Origin: Nostoc sp. CHAB 5834
GTDB lineage: Bacteria; Cyanobacteriota; Cyanobacteriia; Cyanobacteriales; Nostocaceae
Assembly (NCBI GenBank): GCA_020829485.1
Contig: JAIVFU010000179.1
Span: 1-10,442 of the forward strand
Direction: 5' to 3'
Length of the DNA: 10,442 nt
The notes under the pieces are model-generated. The model did no database searches. It was not told the origin of the DNA and saw only the letters and a list, made by a program, of their open reading frames with translations. Made by a program: the position numbers and the translations under genes. Within the stretch, counting starts at the first letter, position 1; each line of letters begins with the position of its first letter. This document shows positions 3,023 to 10,442 of the stretch, piece by piece.

Positions 3023-3830
3023 TTATTTTCGCCGCCGAATGTCGAAGGTCGGATCCCCGAGATCAGACACTGAGCGGTGTGGACAAGGGCGACTACGTAA
3101 AATACGCATTCGATCGGAAGGATGGATCGTATGCGTATTTCCATCATACTCGAGGCATTGGCCCATTGTCACAGGTGAGTTCCACGGTAACAAAAGCTGC
3201 ATAAACAATCCAACTGCGGTTGATGCGAGGACGCCGTTCGGCCAGACCACTTGTGGTTTGCCCCCAGCTGCTCCGTAGTTCCGTCCTTCGATTTCGAGCG
3301 CCTCGTCGGTTACGATGCCAAGGCATCGCAGGCATGGTGCACCTGGGACTGAAAGAACGACTTGCCCTGCGACAATGAATCCGGGTCCTGCCTCATGAAC
3401 GTCCATGCCTTGGTCGATATATGGCATGAGCAACCGGCGGCTCAGATCCTCGAGCTGATCCTTTGCGGTCACGCTGTCGAGGCATCCAAACACCACATCG
3501 CCATGCCGTATTTCGTCGAGAGCATTTTGCCATTTGCGAGCAATAGGAGTTATGCGGGCAGTTGGATTTACAGCCCGGATCATCCGGGCAGCTATGTCAA
3601 CTTTCCGCATTTTGTTTTCGACATCGGCATATGTACCGCCCACTAGCCGGTTCAAATTGGTTTCATTGATGACGTCATCGTCTATGAGAATGAAACCCCC
3701 TACACCAACATGGGCGGCTTGCTGCGCGACATGTGATCCGCCGCCTCCAAGTCCGGCGATCACGATTGTTACATCATCCAACCGACTTTCGTTCTCGGCG
3801 CCAAAAGCTCTGACGATCTAACCAACTCAT
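3023..3830 (-). CDS. E1-like (ThiF) ubiquitin-activating enzyme, +1 frameshift near codon 9
   Basis: Predicted to adenylate the C-terminus of the operon's ubiquitin-like protein. Counting from the in-frame TTG at 3781: ATP-binding GLGGGGSHV (10-18), DDDVINETNLNR (34-45) with the usual Asp and Arg, Lys57, and CLDS at 100-103. Zinc-type ligands are likely Cys150/Cys153 (PCLRC) and Cys233/His235 (PCPH). The crossover region reads QVVWPNGVLAS, with no cysteine at the place of the E1 catalytic Cys. The natural start is very probably the ATG at 3830, which overlaps the JAB stop (ATGA). Its frame reads MSWLDRQSF and then goes out of phase; skipping one base at the TTTT run (3806-3803 in the coding sense) restores GAENESRLDDVTIVIAGLG, the expected E1 N-terminus. 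The full product would have 268 residues. A shorter product from the TTG would lose only the N-terminal helix. The break may be programmed, a mutation or an assembly error. Confidence 0.88.
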
Positions 3831-4333
3831 AGCGGACTCCAGTCTCGGGCGTAGCGGTTTCCAATTTGGGTAAAGGTGTGGATAGGTGAGGGGCTTTTGT
3901 CGTCCGCGAGCCAGATTAAGCCTGCGGCAGAGTCATTGCTAAGCACTATCATGCCTTGCGGCATCCCGGGAACGGTCGCAAAGAAACTCGGAACAAATTC
4001 CGATCCACTTCTTAAATCTACGTTGCTAAATTCTGGCCGTCCGTCGTGACAATGGGCATGGACATGAATGAGCGCGGACTTGGGCCGATAGGCCAGTTGG
4101 GCTGCTTTGCGAAAAGCTTCAGGTCCAATGGCAGCGCCAACGTTTTTAGAAACGATATAATCGCTATCCGCCACCGGCTGATAATTCCGGACAAGTAGCA
4201 GTAATTTTCCCGGAGAAGACGTTGCGGCGGCAACCATGAACCCGACACGCTCCCAAGCATGCGGGTGCGGACGTTCCAAATCTGCCCGAATTTGGGAAAG
4301 CATGTCAGACCGTATGCGGATGGCGATATTCAT
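3827..4333 (-). CDS. JAB/MPN (JAMM) isopeptidase, Mov34/PAD-1 type
   Basis: Predicted zinc metalloprotease of the JAB1/MPN superfamily, 168 residues. It would trim the ubiquitin-like precursor, remove it from targets, or both. The JAMM ligands are visible: Glu28 in WERVGF, the His cluster HVHAH (90-94), and Ser103 and Asp106 in FSNVD. The domain fills the whole chain, with no signal peptide or membrane segment, so it should be cytoplasmic. Its ATG overlaps the E2 stop (ATGA at 4330-4333), and its own stop overlaps an ATG for the E1 (3827-3830), so the order E2-JAB-E1 is translationally coupled. Phage-tail and RadC-like relatives share the fold, but the E1/E2/Ubl context makes deconjugation or maturation by far the best assignment. 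No key residue is missing. Confidence 0.9.
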   Translation of the reverse strand: MNIAIRIRSDMLSQIRADLERPHPHAWERVGFMVAAATSSPGKLLLLVRNYQPVADSDYIVSKNVGAAIGPEAFRKAAQLAYRPKSALIHVHAHCHDGRPEFSNVDLRSGSEFVPSFFATVPGMPQGMIVLSNDSAAGLIWLADDKSPSPIHTFTQIGNRYARDWSPL

Positions 4334-4677
4334 ACCACCGCCTCTGCGCCTTTTACCGCTTCAATATGGCCCGCCAAAATATCTAACCATGGCTGATCTG
4401 CCGGAATCCCGCTCCACGAAAATGCATACCAGTTTAAAGCTTTGATGACATGTGGCCCCCAGTTGCGGTTTACAGGCAGTTGCTCCGCAAAGAACAGCCG
4501 TGTGTCATAACCATCGCGCGCCCGAGGACAGAGCAATCCGTCCACGGTATGAGTTTCACCTGCGCATAAAACCTTTAAGCCTGGGAGGAATACTAGCGGA
4601 TCGCCGCCGTCATCCCATAACTCGGCTCCGGGACAAAGAGCCCGGAGCCGAGCAACTTGAGCATCATGCTCGGTCAC
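4330..4677 (-). CDS. E2-like conjugating protein (Prok-E2_E / E2-UBC family)
   Basis: A 115-residue protein resembling the bacterial E2/UBC family E. Supporting segments are VDGLLCPRARDGYDTRLFF (45-63), NWGPH (72-76), the aromatic ALNWYAFSW (80-88) and DILAGHIEAV (99-108). It should accept the activated ubiquitin-like protein from the E1 and pass it to a target. Its cysteines (15, 38, 50) do not sit in an HPN-x-Cys arrangement as in eukaryotic E2s. Ser87 or Ser89 in FSWSG lies in the most conserved-looking block and is a candidate acceptor; that is inference. Translation starts at GTG, which overlaps the Ubl stop (GTGA, 4674-4677). A perfect GC-rich hairpin covers codons 9-19. Family assignment is fairly secure from sequence plus context; the mechanism is not. 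Confidence 0.8.
   Translation of the reverse strand: MTEHDAQVARLRALCPGAELWDDGGDPLVFLPGLKVLCAGETHTVDGLLCPRARDGYDTRLFFAEQLPVNRNWGPHVIKALNWYAFSWSGIPADQPWLDILAGHIEAVKGAEAVV
4621..4652 (-). promoter_or_regulatory. Perfect 12-bp hairpin inside the start of the E2 gene
   Basis: CTCGGCTCCGGG (4621-4632) and CCCGGAGCCGAG (4641-4652) are exact inverse complements separated by 8 bases. In the mRNA this is a very stable stem 25 bases after the E2 GTG start. No U-run follows in the coding sense, so it is not a standard terminator. It could slow ribosomes or RNA polymerase, or act as an RNase processing barrier, so that far more ubiquitin-like protein is made than E2, JAB and E1. Confidence 0.55.
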
Positions 4678-4958
4678 GACGACTGACCGATCGGAACATG
4701 TGACGTGAAAACCATACCTTCGCGGACGTTTACTTTCCGACCGGGCTTCAGCTCTTTGAATTCACCATCGGGTTCGATGAGGTCGAGGATATGGCCGGCA
4801 GGAACGCCAAAAAGCTCAATCAGCTCTTCCGTCGTCCACTGCCGCCGCTCAACCTCAAAGGGCTGCTCGCGATATTCGATTGAAACCGTGCCTTTGCCGT
4901 CCGGTTTCGGCGGTTTGGGTGCCTTGTTATTGGGCGGTTTGTCATCTGGTGTAGTCAT
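4674..4958 (-). CDS. Ubiquitin-like protein (multiubiquitin-type, single beta-grasp domain)
   Basis: Predicted ubiquitin-like modifier of 94 residues. A Pro/Lys/Asn-rich flexible tail (residues 4-21, with PPNNKAPKPPKP) precedes one beta-grasp-like domain (about 23-90): VSIEYREQPFEVERRQWTTE, then ELIELFGVPAGHILDL, EPDGEFKELKPGRKVNVREG and a final strand. It matches the Multi_ubiq pattern of a strand, helix, GV/DL loop and charged strands. The chain ends VPIGQSS, so a C-terminal glycine (Gly91) would be exposed only after removal of QSS, a natural job for the JAB protein. The ATG at 4958 is chosen because GGAGAA lies about 6 bases upstream; the GTG at 5006 would add 16 residues without a clear site. 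It is the first gene of the operon, and its stop overlaps the E2 start (GTGA). Confidence 0.82.
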   Translation of the reverse strand: MTTPDDKPPNNKAPKPPKPDGKGTVSIEYREQPFEVERRQWTTEELIELFGVPAGHILDLIEPDGEFKELKPGRKVNVREGMVFTSHVPIGQSS

Positions 4959-5086: not shown

Positions 5087-6193
5087 TCAGTTCCCCGCCC
5101 ACTCATAAGTGGTACGCAGATGGTTCATCTCCGAAAAGGCAATTACTCCATTATGTTGAAGCTGACCGACTACAATTCCGGCACTGATGCCTTGCTTCGC
5201 AGCGAAATTGATGATGCCGTCTTCGGATCCGTCGAATTTAGTAATGAATCGGCGCATCGCATCTGAAGGTACGAGAAAATCGGCTGCCCAAGCATTGGCC
5301 TCGGCCTCTTGTTTTGGATTTGCACTGCCTGGTCCCTTGGTCATGTCGATGAATATTTCTTTTCGGCTATGTAGAAGCAGATGTGCACACTCATGGAAGA
5401 AGGTGAACCAAAAATGATCATGTTTCATATGGCGAAAGCTCTGTTGGATTAGTGCTTTGCGGGGCGAGAGCCATCGTGATACGCCGCTGGCGCGAACCTT
5501 AGGAAGCGGTTTTTCCAATACGAATACAACGCCGGCGGATGCACATTTTCTTTTCAGATCGTCCAGAGCTTCATTCACTGGAACCAGTGTCAGTTCTCGC
5601 AGTTCGTCCAACACCGTCAAAAAATTTTCTCGGTCATAGTCGGCTGTTTCCGTCAACGCCGCTTCTCGTTCGCCGATCCGCAACCATGCTGCGAGCGACC
5701 ATTCGTCGTTTTTAAAGACGTCAGACGTGCGAAAGTCGACCGCCATGAGATCATTAAGGCGCTCCTCGCACGCCGTAACACTTGCCACCCCGAAATATTT
5801 CAGGAGAATGTCAACTTGCGCCGCTTTAATCGGGGTTCTTTCAATTAAATTGCGGTCGGCCATCTCTTTTAGCGGGAATTTTTTTGCCCAGTCGAAATGA
5901 CTGGCCAGCAGTTGGTTTTCGTTTTCGCGGGCTTGATGTAGTTGAAAGGCAGCTTCCATGTTTATGAGAATGGCAGCGGGAAGATTGAGAACGCGCTCAA
6001 GTTGCAAAGCAGTCTCTGGTTCCACTGGCGCTTTTCCAGCAACGATTTCCGAGATAAGCTTACCTGATCGACCGCAGCGTCGCGCCAATTCGCGCGCGGA
6101 TATTTGCAGCGTATCGAGATATTCTTCGATCAAATCGCCTGGTGGACAGGCATAATCTGGCGAATAGGTGAAGCGCGGGGCGGACGTCTTCAT
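5087..6193 (-). CDS. HTH (XRE/HigA-like) - ImmA/IrrE metallopeptidase
   Basis: A 368-residue cytoplasmic protein. Residues about 18-75 form a HigA-type helix-turn-helix (ISARELARRCGRSGKLISEI, 31-50, and APVEPETALQLERVLNLPA after it). A helical middle region follows. The C-terminal half is an ImmA/IrrE zinc peptidase with HECAH (267-271) in FTFFHECAHLLLH and a third-ligand block EAEANAWAADFLVP (296-309). Such proteins repress their own operon through the HTH and can cut partner repressors or toxins. The ATG overlaps the toxin stop (ATGA, 6190-6193), so it is the antitoxin or regulator half of a toxin-antitoxin unit. It lies directly upstream of the ubiquitin-like operon on the same strand and may regulate it. 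All zinc ligands appear present. Confidence 0.9.
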   Translation of the reverse strand: MKTSAPRFTYSPDYACPPGDLIEEYLDTLQISARELARRCGRSGKLISEIVAGKAPVEPETALQLERVLNLPAAILINMEAAFQLHQARENENQLLASHFDWAKKFPLKEMADRNLIERTPIKAAQVDILLKYFGVASVTACEERLNDLMAVDFRTSDVFKNDEWSLAAWLRIGEREAALTETADYDRENFLTVLDELRELTLVPVNEALDDLKRKCASAGVVFVLEKPLPKVRASGVSRWLSPRKALIQQSFRHMKHDHFWFTFFHECAHLLLHSRKEIFIDMTKGPGSANPKQEAEANAWAADFLVPSDAMRRFITKFDGSEDGIINFAAKQGISAGIVVGQLQHNGVIAFSEMNHLRTTYEWAGN

Positions 6194-6513
6194 GGTTTTC
6201 TTCCTTCTAGGGTTTGAATTTTTTCTATTCCGATGACTTCTATCTCTGAGATCTTCGACGCGGACGGTGACGTGGGTGTCGATAGAACGAGCCTGTATTC
6301 TGAATCGAGAGCGACAGAATATGGCCCACGCTTTGGTAGCGGAGTCAGACTTATGGGTGGCCCGAATGGCACTGCATCTAAAGTCGGGGCTGCGGCCAAT
6401 ACCGACAAACGACAGCAGATTTTCTTCGCAAGCTTCACTCCAAATTCGGAGATCAAGGACTTACGGCAGCAACAAAGGGTATAAATTTTAGCATCGGAGA
6501 AGGTAATCTCCAC
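6190..6513 (-). CDS. HigB/RelE-like toxin
   Basis: A small toxin-like protein of 107 residues. The start EITFSDAKIYTLC followed by SEFGVKLAKKICCRLSVLAA resembles the HigB/killer-protein branch of the RelE superfamily, where such a helix pair precedes the beta-sheet. The later PYSVALDSEYRLVLS has the Arg (YRL) common in this fold, and EIEVIGIEKI is the last strand. Family members are usually ribosome-dependent mRNA interferases. It precedes and overlaps the HTH-ImmA gene, the HigBA-type order of toxin first. The GTG at 6513 is preferred because GGAGA (6523-6519) sits about 5 bases before it; the TTG at 6525 has no such site. It is unusually cysteine-rich (CCC, CC) for a cytoplasmic toxin. Confidence 0.75.
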   Translation of the reverse strand: MEITFSDAKIYTLCCCRKSLISEFGVKLAKKICCRLSVLAAAPTLDAVPFGPPISLTPLPKRGPYSVALDSEYRLVLSTPTSPSASKISEIEVIGIEKIQTLEGRKP

Positions 6514-6533
6514 ACATTTCTCCAAACATGTTT

Positions 6534-7244: not shown

Positions 7245-8273
7245 ATGCCAAATTTTGCAGGTTTGGACGTGTCCCTTCAGTTGACGAGCGTGTGCATCGT
7301 CGACGATGAAGGCAAAATTGTCCGCGAATTTAAAACATCTACCGAAGCTGAAACGCTCTGCCATGCGCTCCAGCCGTACGCCCATGAACTTAAGGCGATT
7401 GGTCTGGAGGCAGGTCCGATGTCGCAACATCTGTACTCCGAGATGGCCGAGGCGGGCTTTCCGGTAATCTGCGTTGAGTCCCGGCACATGGCGCAGGCCT
7501 TGCGTGCTCAAACGCTCAACAAGACCGACCGTAATGACGCGCGCGGTATCGCGCAGATGATGCGAGTTGGGCTGTTTAAACCCGTTCATGTGAAGACCGA
7601 TCGGAGTCAGCGGCTGAAGGTATTGCTGACCGCTCGCAAGCTGCTCAAATCCAAACTGCTTGATATCGAAGCCGACCTGCGTGGGGTCCTGAAGAATTTC
7701 GGGCTCAAACTGGGCAAAGTTGGCCCCAGACATTTTGAGGATCGGGTCCGCGAACTGGCGTCGTTCGATAGGTTTGTTTCCGAGGTCGTTGAACCTGTTC
7801 TTACCGCACGAAGGGTGCAGCGCGAACAATACGACCGATTGCACCATATGCTTGTTGCTGCGGCTAAAGCAGATCCGGTGTGCCAGCGACTGATGACCAT
7901 GCCTGGTGTCGGTGTCGTTGTGGCGATGACCTACCGTGTTACCATCGATATACCCGTGCGCTTCGCCAAGTCGCGAACGGTCGGCGCGCATATTGGTCTG
8001 ACGCCCAAGCGATACCAGTCCGGAGAGATCGACTGGAGTGGCCGAATTTCCAAAACGGGTGACCAGCTGCTGCGCGCATCGCTCTACGAAGCCGCCCAAG
8101 TGCTCATGACCCGTGTTGCCCGTCCATCGCCCCTTCGGTCGTGGGCGATGCGCCTTGCCAAACGTCGCGGCCACAAACGAGCCACTGTCGCGTTGGCCCG
8201 AAAGATGGGGGTCATATTGCACCGCATGTGGAGCGACGGCACCGACTTCCACTGGGGCAATGCCGTGCAGTGA
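7245..8273 (+). CDS. IS110-family transposase (DEDD recombinase)
   Basis: A complete 342-residue transposase. The N-terminal RuvC-like DEDD domain shows Asp8 in GLDVS, Glu55 in GLEAG, and Asp95 and Asp98 in KTDRNDARGIAQ. A helical linker (about 115-210) follows. The C-terminal Transposase_20 domain begins at MPGVGVVVAMTYR (219-231) and carries GLTPKRYQSGEIDWSGRISK (251-270), where Ser259 is the best candidate for the nucleophilic serine. The family cuts and joins DNA under guidance of an element-encoded RNA. A strong Shine-Dalgarno (GAGGAGGAA, 7232-7240) precedes the ATG. No frameshift or stop interrupts it, so the element may still be active. Confidence 0.95.
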   Translation: MPNFAGLDVSLQLTSVCIVDDEGKIVREFKTSTEAETLCHALQPYAHELKAIGLEAGPMSQHLYSEMAEAGFPVICVESRHMAQALRAQTLNKTDRNDARGIAQMMRVGLFKPVHVKTDRSQRLKVLLTARKLLKSKLLDIEADLRGVLKNFGLKLGKVGPRHFEDRVRELASFDRFVSEVVEPVLTARRVQREQYDRLHHMLVAAAKADPVCQRLMTMPGVGVVVAMTYRVTIDIPVRFAKSRTVGAHIGLTPKRYQSGEIDWSGRISKTGDQLLRASLYEAAQVLMTRVARPSPLRSWAMRLAKRRGHKRATVALARKMGVILHRMWSDGTDFHWGNAVQ

Positions 8274-9216: not shown

Positions 9217-10442
9217 CTAGTCAATATCTAGAAACTGAAGCACCTGCTGAAGCAGAGGTTGAAAGTTTGCCAATGTCACCGCACACTCAGCATCCGGTTG
9301 GCGGCAAACACGCTGTGCAGTAACTATTTTGTGGTCAGGGTTAAAATCATCTTTGACGAGATAGGACCAAGCCGCATCTAGATGTTCGTCAAAGGTGGTC
9401 TCCGCGAGAAGAATTTTATTCACGAGTATTGGGTGGCAAACTTTTCCGGGGTCGCGTCGAACAAGATGTTTTTTTGTATGTGCGACGGTCCAGACTTCCT
9501 GCGGATATAGTGTCTCGAGTGACGCATAGACATCAAAGTGCGCAGCCCGAGCGGCGCGAACTTGGTGAGGCATAGGGTACACAAAACACTTTGCCGATTT
9601 CACATTGTCAGGCTGTTTGTTAAATTCATCTTTTGGCTGTGCGGCATCCCCGTCGACGATACCTACTGCCTTTGGTCGTGTCGGGTGATGTTTGTGTTGT
9701 GATCGCCAACCAACCAGCATGTCGATAACGTAGGTGTGTCCTGCCCCTGCTCGTTTCGTCTCAAAACGCACCTGATCAACTTTAGCGGGAAAGAAAAGCT
9801 CAAGCGCCCTTGCTAATATAAGTCGGTCACTTTCACCTTCCACAAATATGCGGGGGCATTCTTCTTCAGCTAGTTTTGCCGCTGCAGCTTTCGCCGCCTC
9901 CTGTTGCCGCACTTGTGCGACCATCTCGGAAATACGCGGCGCCAGCATCGCCAGCGTTCCTAAGCTTTCGTCGATACCTTTAGCGTCTGTTTTTGTGATC
10001 GTTCCGTCGGTATCCGTTGTTCGAGTAACAAAATTAAGAGCGACGTCAGACTCACGCTGCCCGAGATCGTAGAAAGCTGGAGAGTGTGTTGTTAGGATAA
10101 TTTGAGCCGTTCCCGATTTTGCCAAACTATAAAGCTCGTCTGCGAGCTGTACTGCGCTTCCAATCTCGAGATTGTTCTCTGGCTCCTCATACGCCCAAAT
10201 GCTGCTGATCGGCTGGCCCCCGCGCGTTTGTAGAGCAGCTTTTTTCTCAGCCATAAACCGTAAGATTAGCGGAATGTGGCGAGCTTTTATACCATCACCA
10301 CGGTTGTTGAGAGAAACCGATTTTTCCCCGCTCAGGAAATCTAATCGCTCGAAAATGTGGTAAAGATCTCGTGGAAGGGCGAGCTTCGTTTCAAATCCGA
10401 GCGATTTAGAGATGTTGGTTGTCAATTCGTTAAGGTGGTCTC
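9217..10442 (-). CDS. OLD-family ATP-dependent nuclease (ABC ATPase-Toprim), 5' end beyond window
   Basis: The C-terminal part of an overcoming-lysogenization-defect type protein. The frame stays open to the window edge, so the Walker A region is missing here only because the window stops. Counting from the internal TTG at 10425: a signature-like block NNRGDGIKARHIPLIL (40-55), Walker B WAYEEPENNLE (77-87) and switch histidine LTTHSPAF (111-118). An Ala/Gln-rich helix (about 168-188) follows. The Toprim domain has Glu197 in IFVEGESD and the Asp pair in GIVDGD (Asp258, Asp260). These ligands bind metal for DNA cleavage in OLD and GajA nucleases. No UvrD-like (GajB) gene lies downstream; the gene upstream is outside the window. 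A defence nuclease is the most likely role. Confidence 0.88.
   Translation of the reverse strand, partial: DHLNELTTNISKSLGFETKLALPRDLYHIFERLDFLSGEKSVSLNNRGDGIKARHIPLILRFMAEKKAALQTRGGQPISSIWAYEEPENNLEIGSAVQLADELYSLAKSGTAQIILTTHSPAFYDLGQRESDVALNFVTRTTDTDGTITKTDAKGIDESLGTLAMLAPRISEMVAQVRQQEAAKAAAAKLAEEECPRIFVEGESDRLILARALELFFPAKVDQVRFETKRAGAGHTYVIDMLVGWRSQHKHHPTRPKAVGIVDGDAAQPKDEFNKQPDNVKSAKCFVYPMPHQVRAARAAHFDVYASLETLYPQEVWTVAHTKKHLVRRDPGKVCHPILVNKILLAETTFDEHLDAAWSYLVKDDFNPDHKIVTAQRVCRQPDAECAVTLANFQPLLQQVLQFLDID

Follow-up and report, generated by a model that had tools for sequence, protein, structure and literature searches.

The window, that is the whole stretch analysed (positions 1 to 10,442 of contig JAIVFU010000179.1 from Nostoc sp. 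CHAB 5834, 10,442 nucleotides), carries on its minus strand, at 3023-4958, an operon of four overlapping genes that is related to the bacterial Bub system. The gene order is ubiquitin-like protein (Ubl), E2-like protein, JAB and E1. The Ubl gene (4674..4958) encodes 94 amino acids (aa): an N-terminal extension rich in Pro and Lys (taken for a tail in an earlier note on this DNA), one beta-grasp domain and a C-terminus reading P-I-G91-Q-S-S. The E2-like gene (4330..4677) starts with GTG and encodes 115 aa, with a UBC/UEV fold and an invariant Ser87 (codon 4419-4417). The JAB/JAMM metalloprotease gene (3827..4333) encodes 168 aa in which the JAMM motif is kept (E28, H90-x-H92, S103-x-x-D106). 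The E1-like adenylyltransferase is read from an open frame of 264 codons (3023..3817) that includes Tyr181 (codon 3277-3275) and the likely zinc ligands C162, C165, C245 and H247. The four coupled genes reported by the earlier note are seen in the sequence, as are the overlaps that join them: GTGA between the Ubl and E2 genes, ATGA between the E2 and JAB genes.

The assignment of the products to a Ubl, a UBC-fold E2, a JAMM protease and a ThiF-like E1 likewise holds, according to domain scores and to the folds predicted for the E2 and the JAB. The E1 matches the Pfam ThiF model with 102.9 bits (2e-29) and keeps the conserved ATP-site motifs of ThiF type; its best match in the PDB is BubCD of Citrobacter (4.4e-14 with the single sequence, 5.5e-24 with a profile). 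The Ubl matches Multi_ubiq with 22.8 bits, just under the cut-off of 24.5 bits; its relative at locus L026 scores 65.7 bits, clearly over this cut-off. The E2-like protein is predicted (predicted local distance difference test score, pLDDT: 94.4) to adopt a UBC/UEV-like fold, with BubB among its best structure matches. A Pfam search of this protein with PF14462 (Prok-E2_E) gave no match over the gathering cut-off, and its profile gave no credible match among PDB sequences (best E 0.68, unrelated). The Prok-E2_E type proposed earlier is retained as a UBC fold and a remote relation, not as a family match. The JAB (pLDDT 89.6) has a predicted JAMM fold; Prok-JAB (PF14464) gave no match over the gathering cut-off for the window protein and matches weakly 5 of the 22 members of its family (best E 0.0024).

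Matches to all four window proteins were found at 22 of the 25 genome loci retrieved through the E1 (L001-L022). L023 has matches to the E2, JAB and E1 and a short Ubl open reading frame (ORF) that was overlooked by the single-sequence search; L024 and L025 match the E1 only. L012 and L014-L017 are near-copies with almost equal scores, and L012, L014, L016 and L017 were left out of all alignments. Since four-gene relatives exist, a chance origin of the gene set is implausible: the operon is genuine and Bub-related. The JAB and the E1 form two ORFs, not one, in the window as well as in L001-L023. A 4-nt overlap between the E2 and JAB genes is found in all 22 complete loci, start codons being chosen mechanically as the ones nearest the end of the previous gene, a choice that favours short overlaps. 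Scans for promoters and terminators gave results no better than those of shuffled sequences.

Neither of the two transfer enzymes has a conserved catalytic cysteine. In an alignment of 23 E1 rows, the only invariant cysteines are C162, C165 and C245, which together with H247 resemble a zinc site. Tyr181 is invariant (23/23) and is aligned by HMMER with Cys184 of E. coli ThiF, the catalytic cysteine of that enzyme. In the E2-like family, Ser87, Y57, R60, W73 and W83 are invariant in 41/41 rows and the best cysteine column reaches 26/41 (27 relatives were obtained from a database search: 12 used in alignment A1, 21 in alignment A4). In the Ubl, G91 and S93 are invariant in 22/22 rows (alignment A6), and 21 of the 22 Ubls of the group end in G-x-S-S or G-x-S-A, that of L010 being one residue longer. 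The broken JAB of L028 was left out of alignment A2.

In an unrooted tree of 40 E1s, a branch supported at 100/100 has all 23 rows of window type on the same side. These operons are called the split group here; the name states a rule with an exception, since the E1 of L029 (Spirosoma) falls inside the group though a JAB remnant and the E1 share one frame. The Bub-type operon of a Deinococcus plasmid (L030, 2797-6691) encodes one Multi_ubiq domain, an E2/UBC protein, a JAB-like-ThiF fusion, a phosphotransferase and a DUF6527 protein; in the tree its E1 is placed close to the split group, and its Ubl has a different C-terminal end.

The Bub system of Citrobacter (BubA, BubB and BubCD; PDB 9ea4, 9ea5, 9ea8, 9eae, 9eav) has in common with the window operon a UBC-fold E2, a JAMM protease and, upstream, putative regulators of helix-turn-helix (HTH)/ImmA type or resembling CapK and CapS. 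Its Ubl is of Multi_ubiq type, a family for which the window Ubl scores just under the cut-off, and both E1s have a conserved Tyr, probably at equivalent places, in the region of Cys184 of ThiF. A BubB-like E2 fold devoid of a conserved Cys is also found in the window. The link to the Bub pathway suggested by the earlier note is upheld by the best E1 sequence match and by the E2 fold. However, Bub has a BubCD fusion whereas the JAB and E1 genes are separate here; for this reason the window operon is named Bub-related and not Bub. It also differs by an E2 that escapes PF14462, by E1s set apart by the 100/100 branch, by the G-x-S-S/A end of the split-group Ubls and by the single domain of the window Ubl. 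What is new with respect to the known Bub kind is how the genes are laid out, the sequence group to which the operon belongs and how far its E2 has diverged.

The canonical kind was sampled by a PF14462 scan of 396 genomes: relatives were found in 17 of them and 15 loci were kept (L037-L051). A long ORF joins a JAMM-like motif and the E1 in 14 of these 15 loci, L051 being unclear. In 12/15, the E2 carries a fused Ubl-like stretch and an x-x-G sequence, such as TEG or NNG, lies close to the junction; the separate Ubl of L037 ends exactly in TEG. These two features support a cut after a glycine and, by extension, after Gly91 of the window Ubl. A PF14462 search of 10 genomes that hold an operon of window type matched a single place, which lies away from that operon. 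In one genome (G003), a split-type operon (L007) and a canonical Bub-type operon of the Prok-E2_E kind (L032) lie about 25 kb apart (both contigs: 92,696 bases).

Several other systems resemble the window operon in part. The portions of Iyer et al. 2006 (PMC1779556) used here describe a fifth operon type (Table 1, row 6e) with a Ubl of 1-3 domains, a cysteine-less E2 and a JAB and E1 that are mostly fused; an E1 unfused to the JAB is always adjoined by the JAB gene, and the cysteine-less E2 is occasionally encoded by a separate gene. According to these remarks, parts of the split layout were already noted in 2006; the difference is that the JAB is mostly fused to the E1 there and separate here. 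The section concerned of a 2024 review (PMC11354881) repeats the description of the fifth type, and Bub is mentioned in the part consulted of a 2025 review (PMC12687455). No other paper recognised as describing the split group was retrieved by a literature search, which cannot establish absence. Bil (BilABCD), mentioned as a related pathway in the earlier note, also encodes its Ubl, E2, JAB and E1 by four genes. In the section used of the 2024 review, BilB has a catalytic Cys138 and BilD has Cys417 and two adenylation domains, one inactive and one active (PMC11354881), whereas in the window operon these catalytic cysteines have no conserved counterpart and the E1 has a single adenylation domain. 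Membership of Bil was rejected on the lack of a conserved catalytic Cys in the E2. ThiF and MoeB share the adenylation fold and a CxxC half-site with the window E1, and differ by the Cys184 aligned with Tyr181 and by their partner genes. An E1-E2 fusion of Type II CBASS (cyclic-oligonucleotide-based anti-phage signalling system) or 6A-MBL type was rejected: the E2 is a separate gene in the window, and the PADLOC and NCBIfam E1-E2 models match only behind their first ~170-370 residues.

The reading favoured here, with somewhat better than even confidence, is that of a Bub-related tagging operon from a distinct group, whose members as a rule encode the Ubl, E2, JAB and E1 by one gene each and in which transfer would proceed by a cysteine-free mechanism. 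The JAB would trim the Ubl tail behind the invariant Gly91. The E1, given its ThiF-type ATP-site motifs, would adenylate Gly91. The acyl group would then pass to a target amine with no cysteine thioester: apart from the zinc site, no cysteine is conserved throughout either enzyme family, a pattern that strongly suggests cysteine-free chemistry. The most likely catalytic residues, whether as nucleophiles or helpers, would be Tyr181 of the E1 and Ser87 of the E2. The JAB may also remove the tag, and expression is probably gated by a DNA-damage-type HTH/ImmA switch, as the neighbourhoods suggest and as has been reported for some Bub operons. Tyr181 probably has an equivalent in Bub. The title of PDB 9eav is BubCD(D104A/Y370F)-BubB-BubA(155-229); in its chain, the Asp of the JAMM motif has number 106 and the Tyr of the motif GYITG has number 372. 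Since chain numbering appears to run two ahead (an inferred offset), Y370 would be the Tyr of GYITG. A Tyr occupies this place in 15/15 Bub-type E1s (alignment without L049 and L051).

Several observations weigh against this reading. The equivalence of Tyr181 and Tyr370 is graded as probable only, because the Tyr precedes a shared P-x-V by 7 residues in the window group and by 9 in Bub, and because MAFFT places the two tyrosines two columns apart; in addition, the HMMER alignments of the E1 to BubCD end before the Tyr. Another E1 column has a Cys in 21/23 rows (Gly in the window), and Cys50 of the E2 is present in 23/41 rows, the window included. The relation of the E2 to Prok-E2_E found by hhalign is a moderate link (E 3.2e-5, probability 72.7), and Foldseek E-values for the E2 model are 0.067 or worse. 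No clear Ubl-E2 boundary is seen in two of the 15 canonical loci (L047, L051). Finally, the start of the E1 is disrupted in the window.

This last defect bears on another explanation, possible though doubtful: the operon is decaying in the window contig, the E1 frameshift being real and the single-domain Ubl a remnant. The intact E1 of about 268 residues described earlier does not exist as such: the frame of 268 codons is interrupted by a TAG at 3820-3818. The likely start lies in another frame (3774..3830), in which an ATG at 3830 overlaps the JAB stop and opens a relative-like N-terminus, MSWLDRQSF, before the frame closes after 18 codons. The long frame (3817-3023) picks up where the relatives continue and has no common start codon before TTG 3781. 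Relatives start without interruption, e.g. MKWLERQSFLGADS in P0037, the closest one (77% identity), which is intact. The window copy is either truly broken or affected by an assembly error at a T run; as its start is frame-shifted, it may be inactive. Programmed frameshifting was considered, given that the TTTT run might slip, and rejected as unlikely because the relatives read at this place manage without it. That such operons do decay is shown by a Rhizobium plasmid (L028), whose JAB (3334-3977) is broken over two frames and unannotated; the near-copy L019 is intact.

Decay would also account for a window Ubl devoid of the first two domains that most relatives have. The single domain claimed by the earlier note is correct for the window and is not shared by most relatives: they have 234-237 aa in six annotated plasmid records, and their last domain matches the entire window Ubl. 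Against a remnant, three Ubl relatives in the database also have exactly 94 aa (95, 89 and 79% identity; a fourth has 128 aa), and the Ubl of L023 is short too. As the 94-aa form recurs in these three relatives, sequence comparison indicates that the short form is inherited and not an accident of the window contig. The search was limited to proteins of 0.55-1.75 times the query length, so that the frequency of the short form cannot be deduced from it. Furthermore, the frames of the E2 and the JAB are uninterrupted, as are the 264 codons left of the E1, and the motifs are preserved.

A stronger version of the favoured reading, offered tentatively and thought rather unlikely, makes the whole group cysteine-free, with an invariant E1 Tyr in place of the ThiF Cys, an E2 Ser, an oxygen-ester relay and a Ubl tail in G-x-S-S; it is proposed jointly with a location on conjugative and other plasmids and on other genome contigs, the E2 and JAB being unlabelled in the records looked at. 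It is likewise unlikely, and slightly more so, that the E2-like protein is a dead adaptor of UEV type and that the E1 alone transfers, with Tyr181 as nucleophile or acid/base. The five E2 residues invariant in all 41 rows are more than a scaffold usually needs, an argument that is not decisive. A sulfur-carrier or cofactor pathway (ThiS/MoaD-like) instead of protein tagging is very improbable and was rejected: the E1 does match ThiF and MoeB models, but all listed ThiF/MoeB equivalog scores are far under their cut-offs, an E2-fold protein and a JAB are encoded as well, Tyr takes the place of ThiF Cys184 in every row, BubCD is the best PDB match and thiamine or molybdopterin genes are not among the annotated or scanned neighbours, most other neighbours being unlabelled.

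The Bub-related tagging operon favoured above provides a natural split relative of the Bub pathway in which each of the four proteins can be expressed and mutated alone, and two invariant non-cysteine residues, Tyr181 of the E1 and Ser87 of the E2, are named as candidates. Because the E2 and the JAB carry no family label, the annotated plasmid records looked at present such operons as two hypothetical genes accompanied by a ThiF gene and by one called multiubiquitin or hypothetical; for the same reason, surveys that depend on the Prok-E2_E or Prok-JAB models would tend to overlook these operons. The E2 was found in 10 plasmid records (6 conjugative, 3 mobilizable) and is labelled hypothetical or conserved hypothetical in all 9 annotated ones. 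Carriers include Pseudomonadota, Verrucomicrobiota, Acidobacteriota, Planctomycetota and one Desulfovibrio; named near relatives are Sphingomonadales proteins and a conjugative plasmid of Sphingobium herbicidovorans. The E2 is rare in genomes: it occurs in 4 of 396 from the order of a Sphingopyxis carrier (the carrier and one near-copy counted) and, among 398 from its phylum, in the carrier only. No DNA near-identical to the window was found among plasmids, no E2 relative was found in phage records and no E1 relative was confirmed among IMG/VR contigs.

Directly upstream of the operon, on the same strand, lies a gene (5087..6193) encoding an HTH and ImmA/IrrE (M78) protein, which matches Peptidase_M78 (40.8 bits), the HigA model (54 bits; cut-off: 47.7) and PD-Lambda-2_B of PADLOC (7.5e-34). 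It is overlapped by 4 nt by a small ORF (6190..6525, minus strand), HigB-like by position only; its sole Pfam match has an E-value of 0.26, and none was found in NCBIfam, PADLOC or PHROGs. Of the toxin/ImmA unit proposed by the earlier note, the ImmA part is confirmed by a domain match and the toxin part is indicated by position alone. The HTH-ImmA gene is possibly a regulator of the operon or the antitoxin of the small ORF; the second possibility is raised because a same-strand fusion is preceded by a small ORF. Upstream genes were examined at 25 loci (L001-L011, L013, L015, L018-L023, L026-L028, L052-L054; the loci left aside, L012, L014, L016, L017, L024, L025 and L029-L031, are near-copies, lie at contig ends or belong to other types). 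In 17 of the 25, a peptidase gene of ImmA/IrrE type lies upstream: over the Pfam M78 cut-off in L001-L005, L008, L009, L011, L018, L019, L021 and L023, under it in L010 and by annotation in L028 and L052-L054. In most of these loci the gene is transcribed divergently from the operon; in L005 and L010 the two share a strand. L006, L013, L015, L020 and L022 have an HTH gene and no M78 gene (for L020, judging by its likeness to L015; on the L006 contig, 686 bases precede the operon). L007 and L026 have GHKL-ATPase-like and winged-helix genes resembling CapK and CapS (weak Pfam support), and L027 has a toxin-antitoxin pair. In the part consulted of a 2026 study, 219 of 544 Bub operons are reported to have CapW or CapH+CapP, while CapK+CapS accompany others (EMBO J 2026, PMC13373217).

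Elsewhere in the window, a ParB-N/N6_N4 DNA methyltransferase (phrog_498) and then a DUF5681 protein are encoded at 876-2974, a pair that looks phage- or island-derived. An IS110-family transposase (7245-8273) lies between the operon side and the C-terminal part of an AAA_15/OLD-like ATPase (9217-10440), which is cut by the contig end and has partial matches to AriA, GajA and OLD models. At other loci, an exonuclease gene is found beyond the HTH or HTH/ImmA genes (L011 and L013, Pfam; L052, annotated; L019 and L028, resemblance). Downstream of the E1 are PD-(D/E)XK nuclease and UvrD-type helicase genes in L027 and L028, a PDDEXK protein in L019 and, by resemblance, SbcCD-like genes in L011. 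On two plasmids, the E1 is directly followed by a pair encoding an ATP-binding protein and an S8 peptidase (L053, 6047-9414; L054, 6022-9401).

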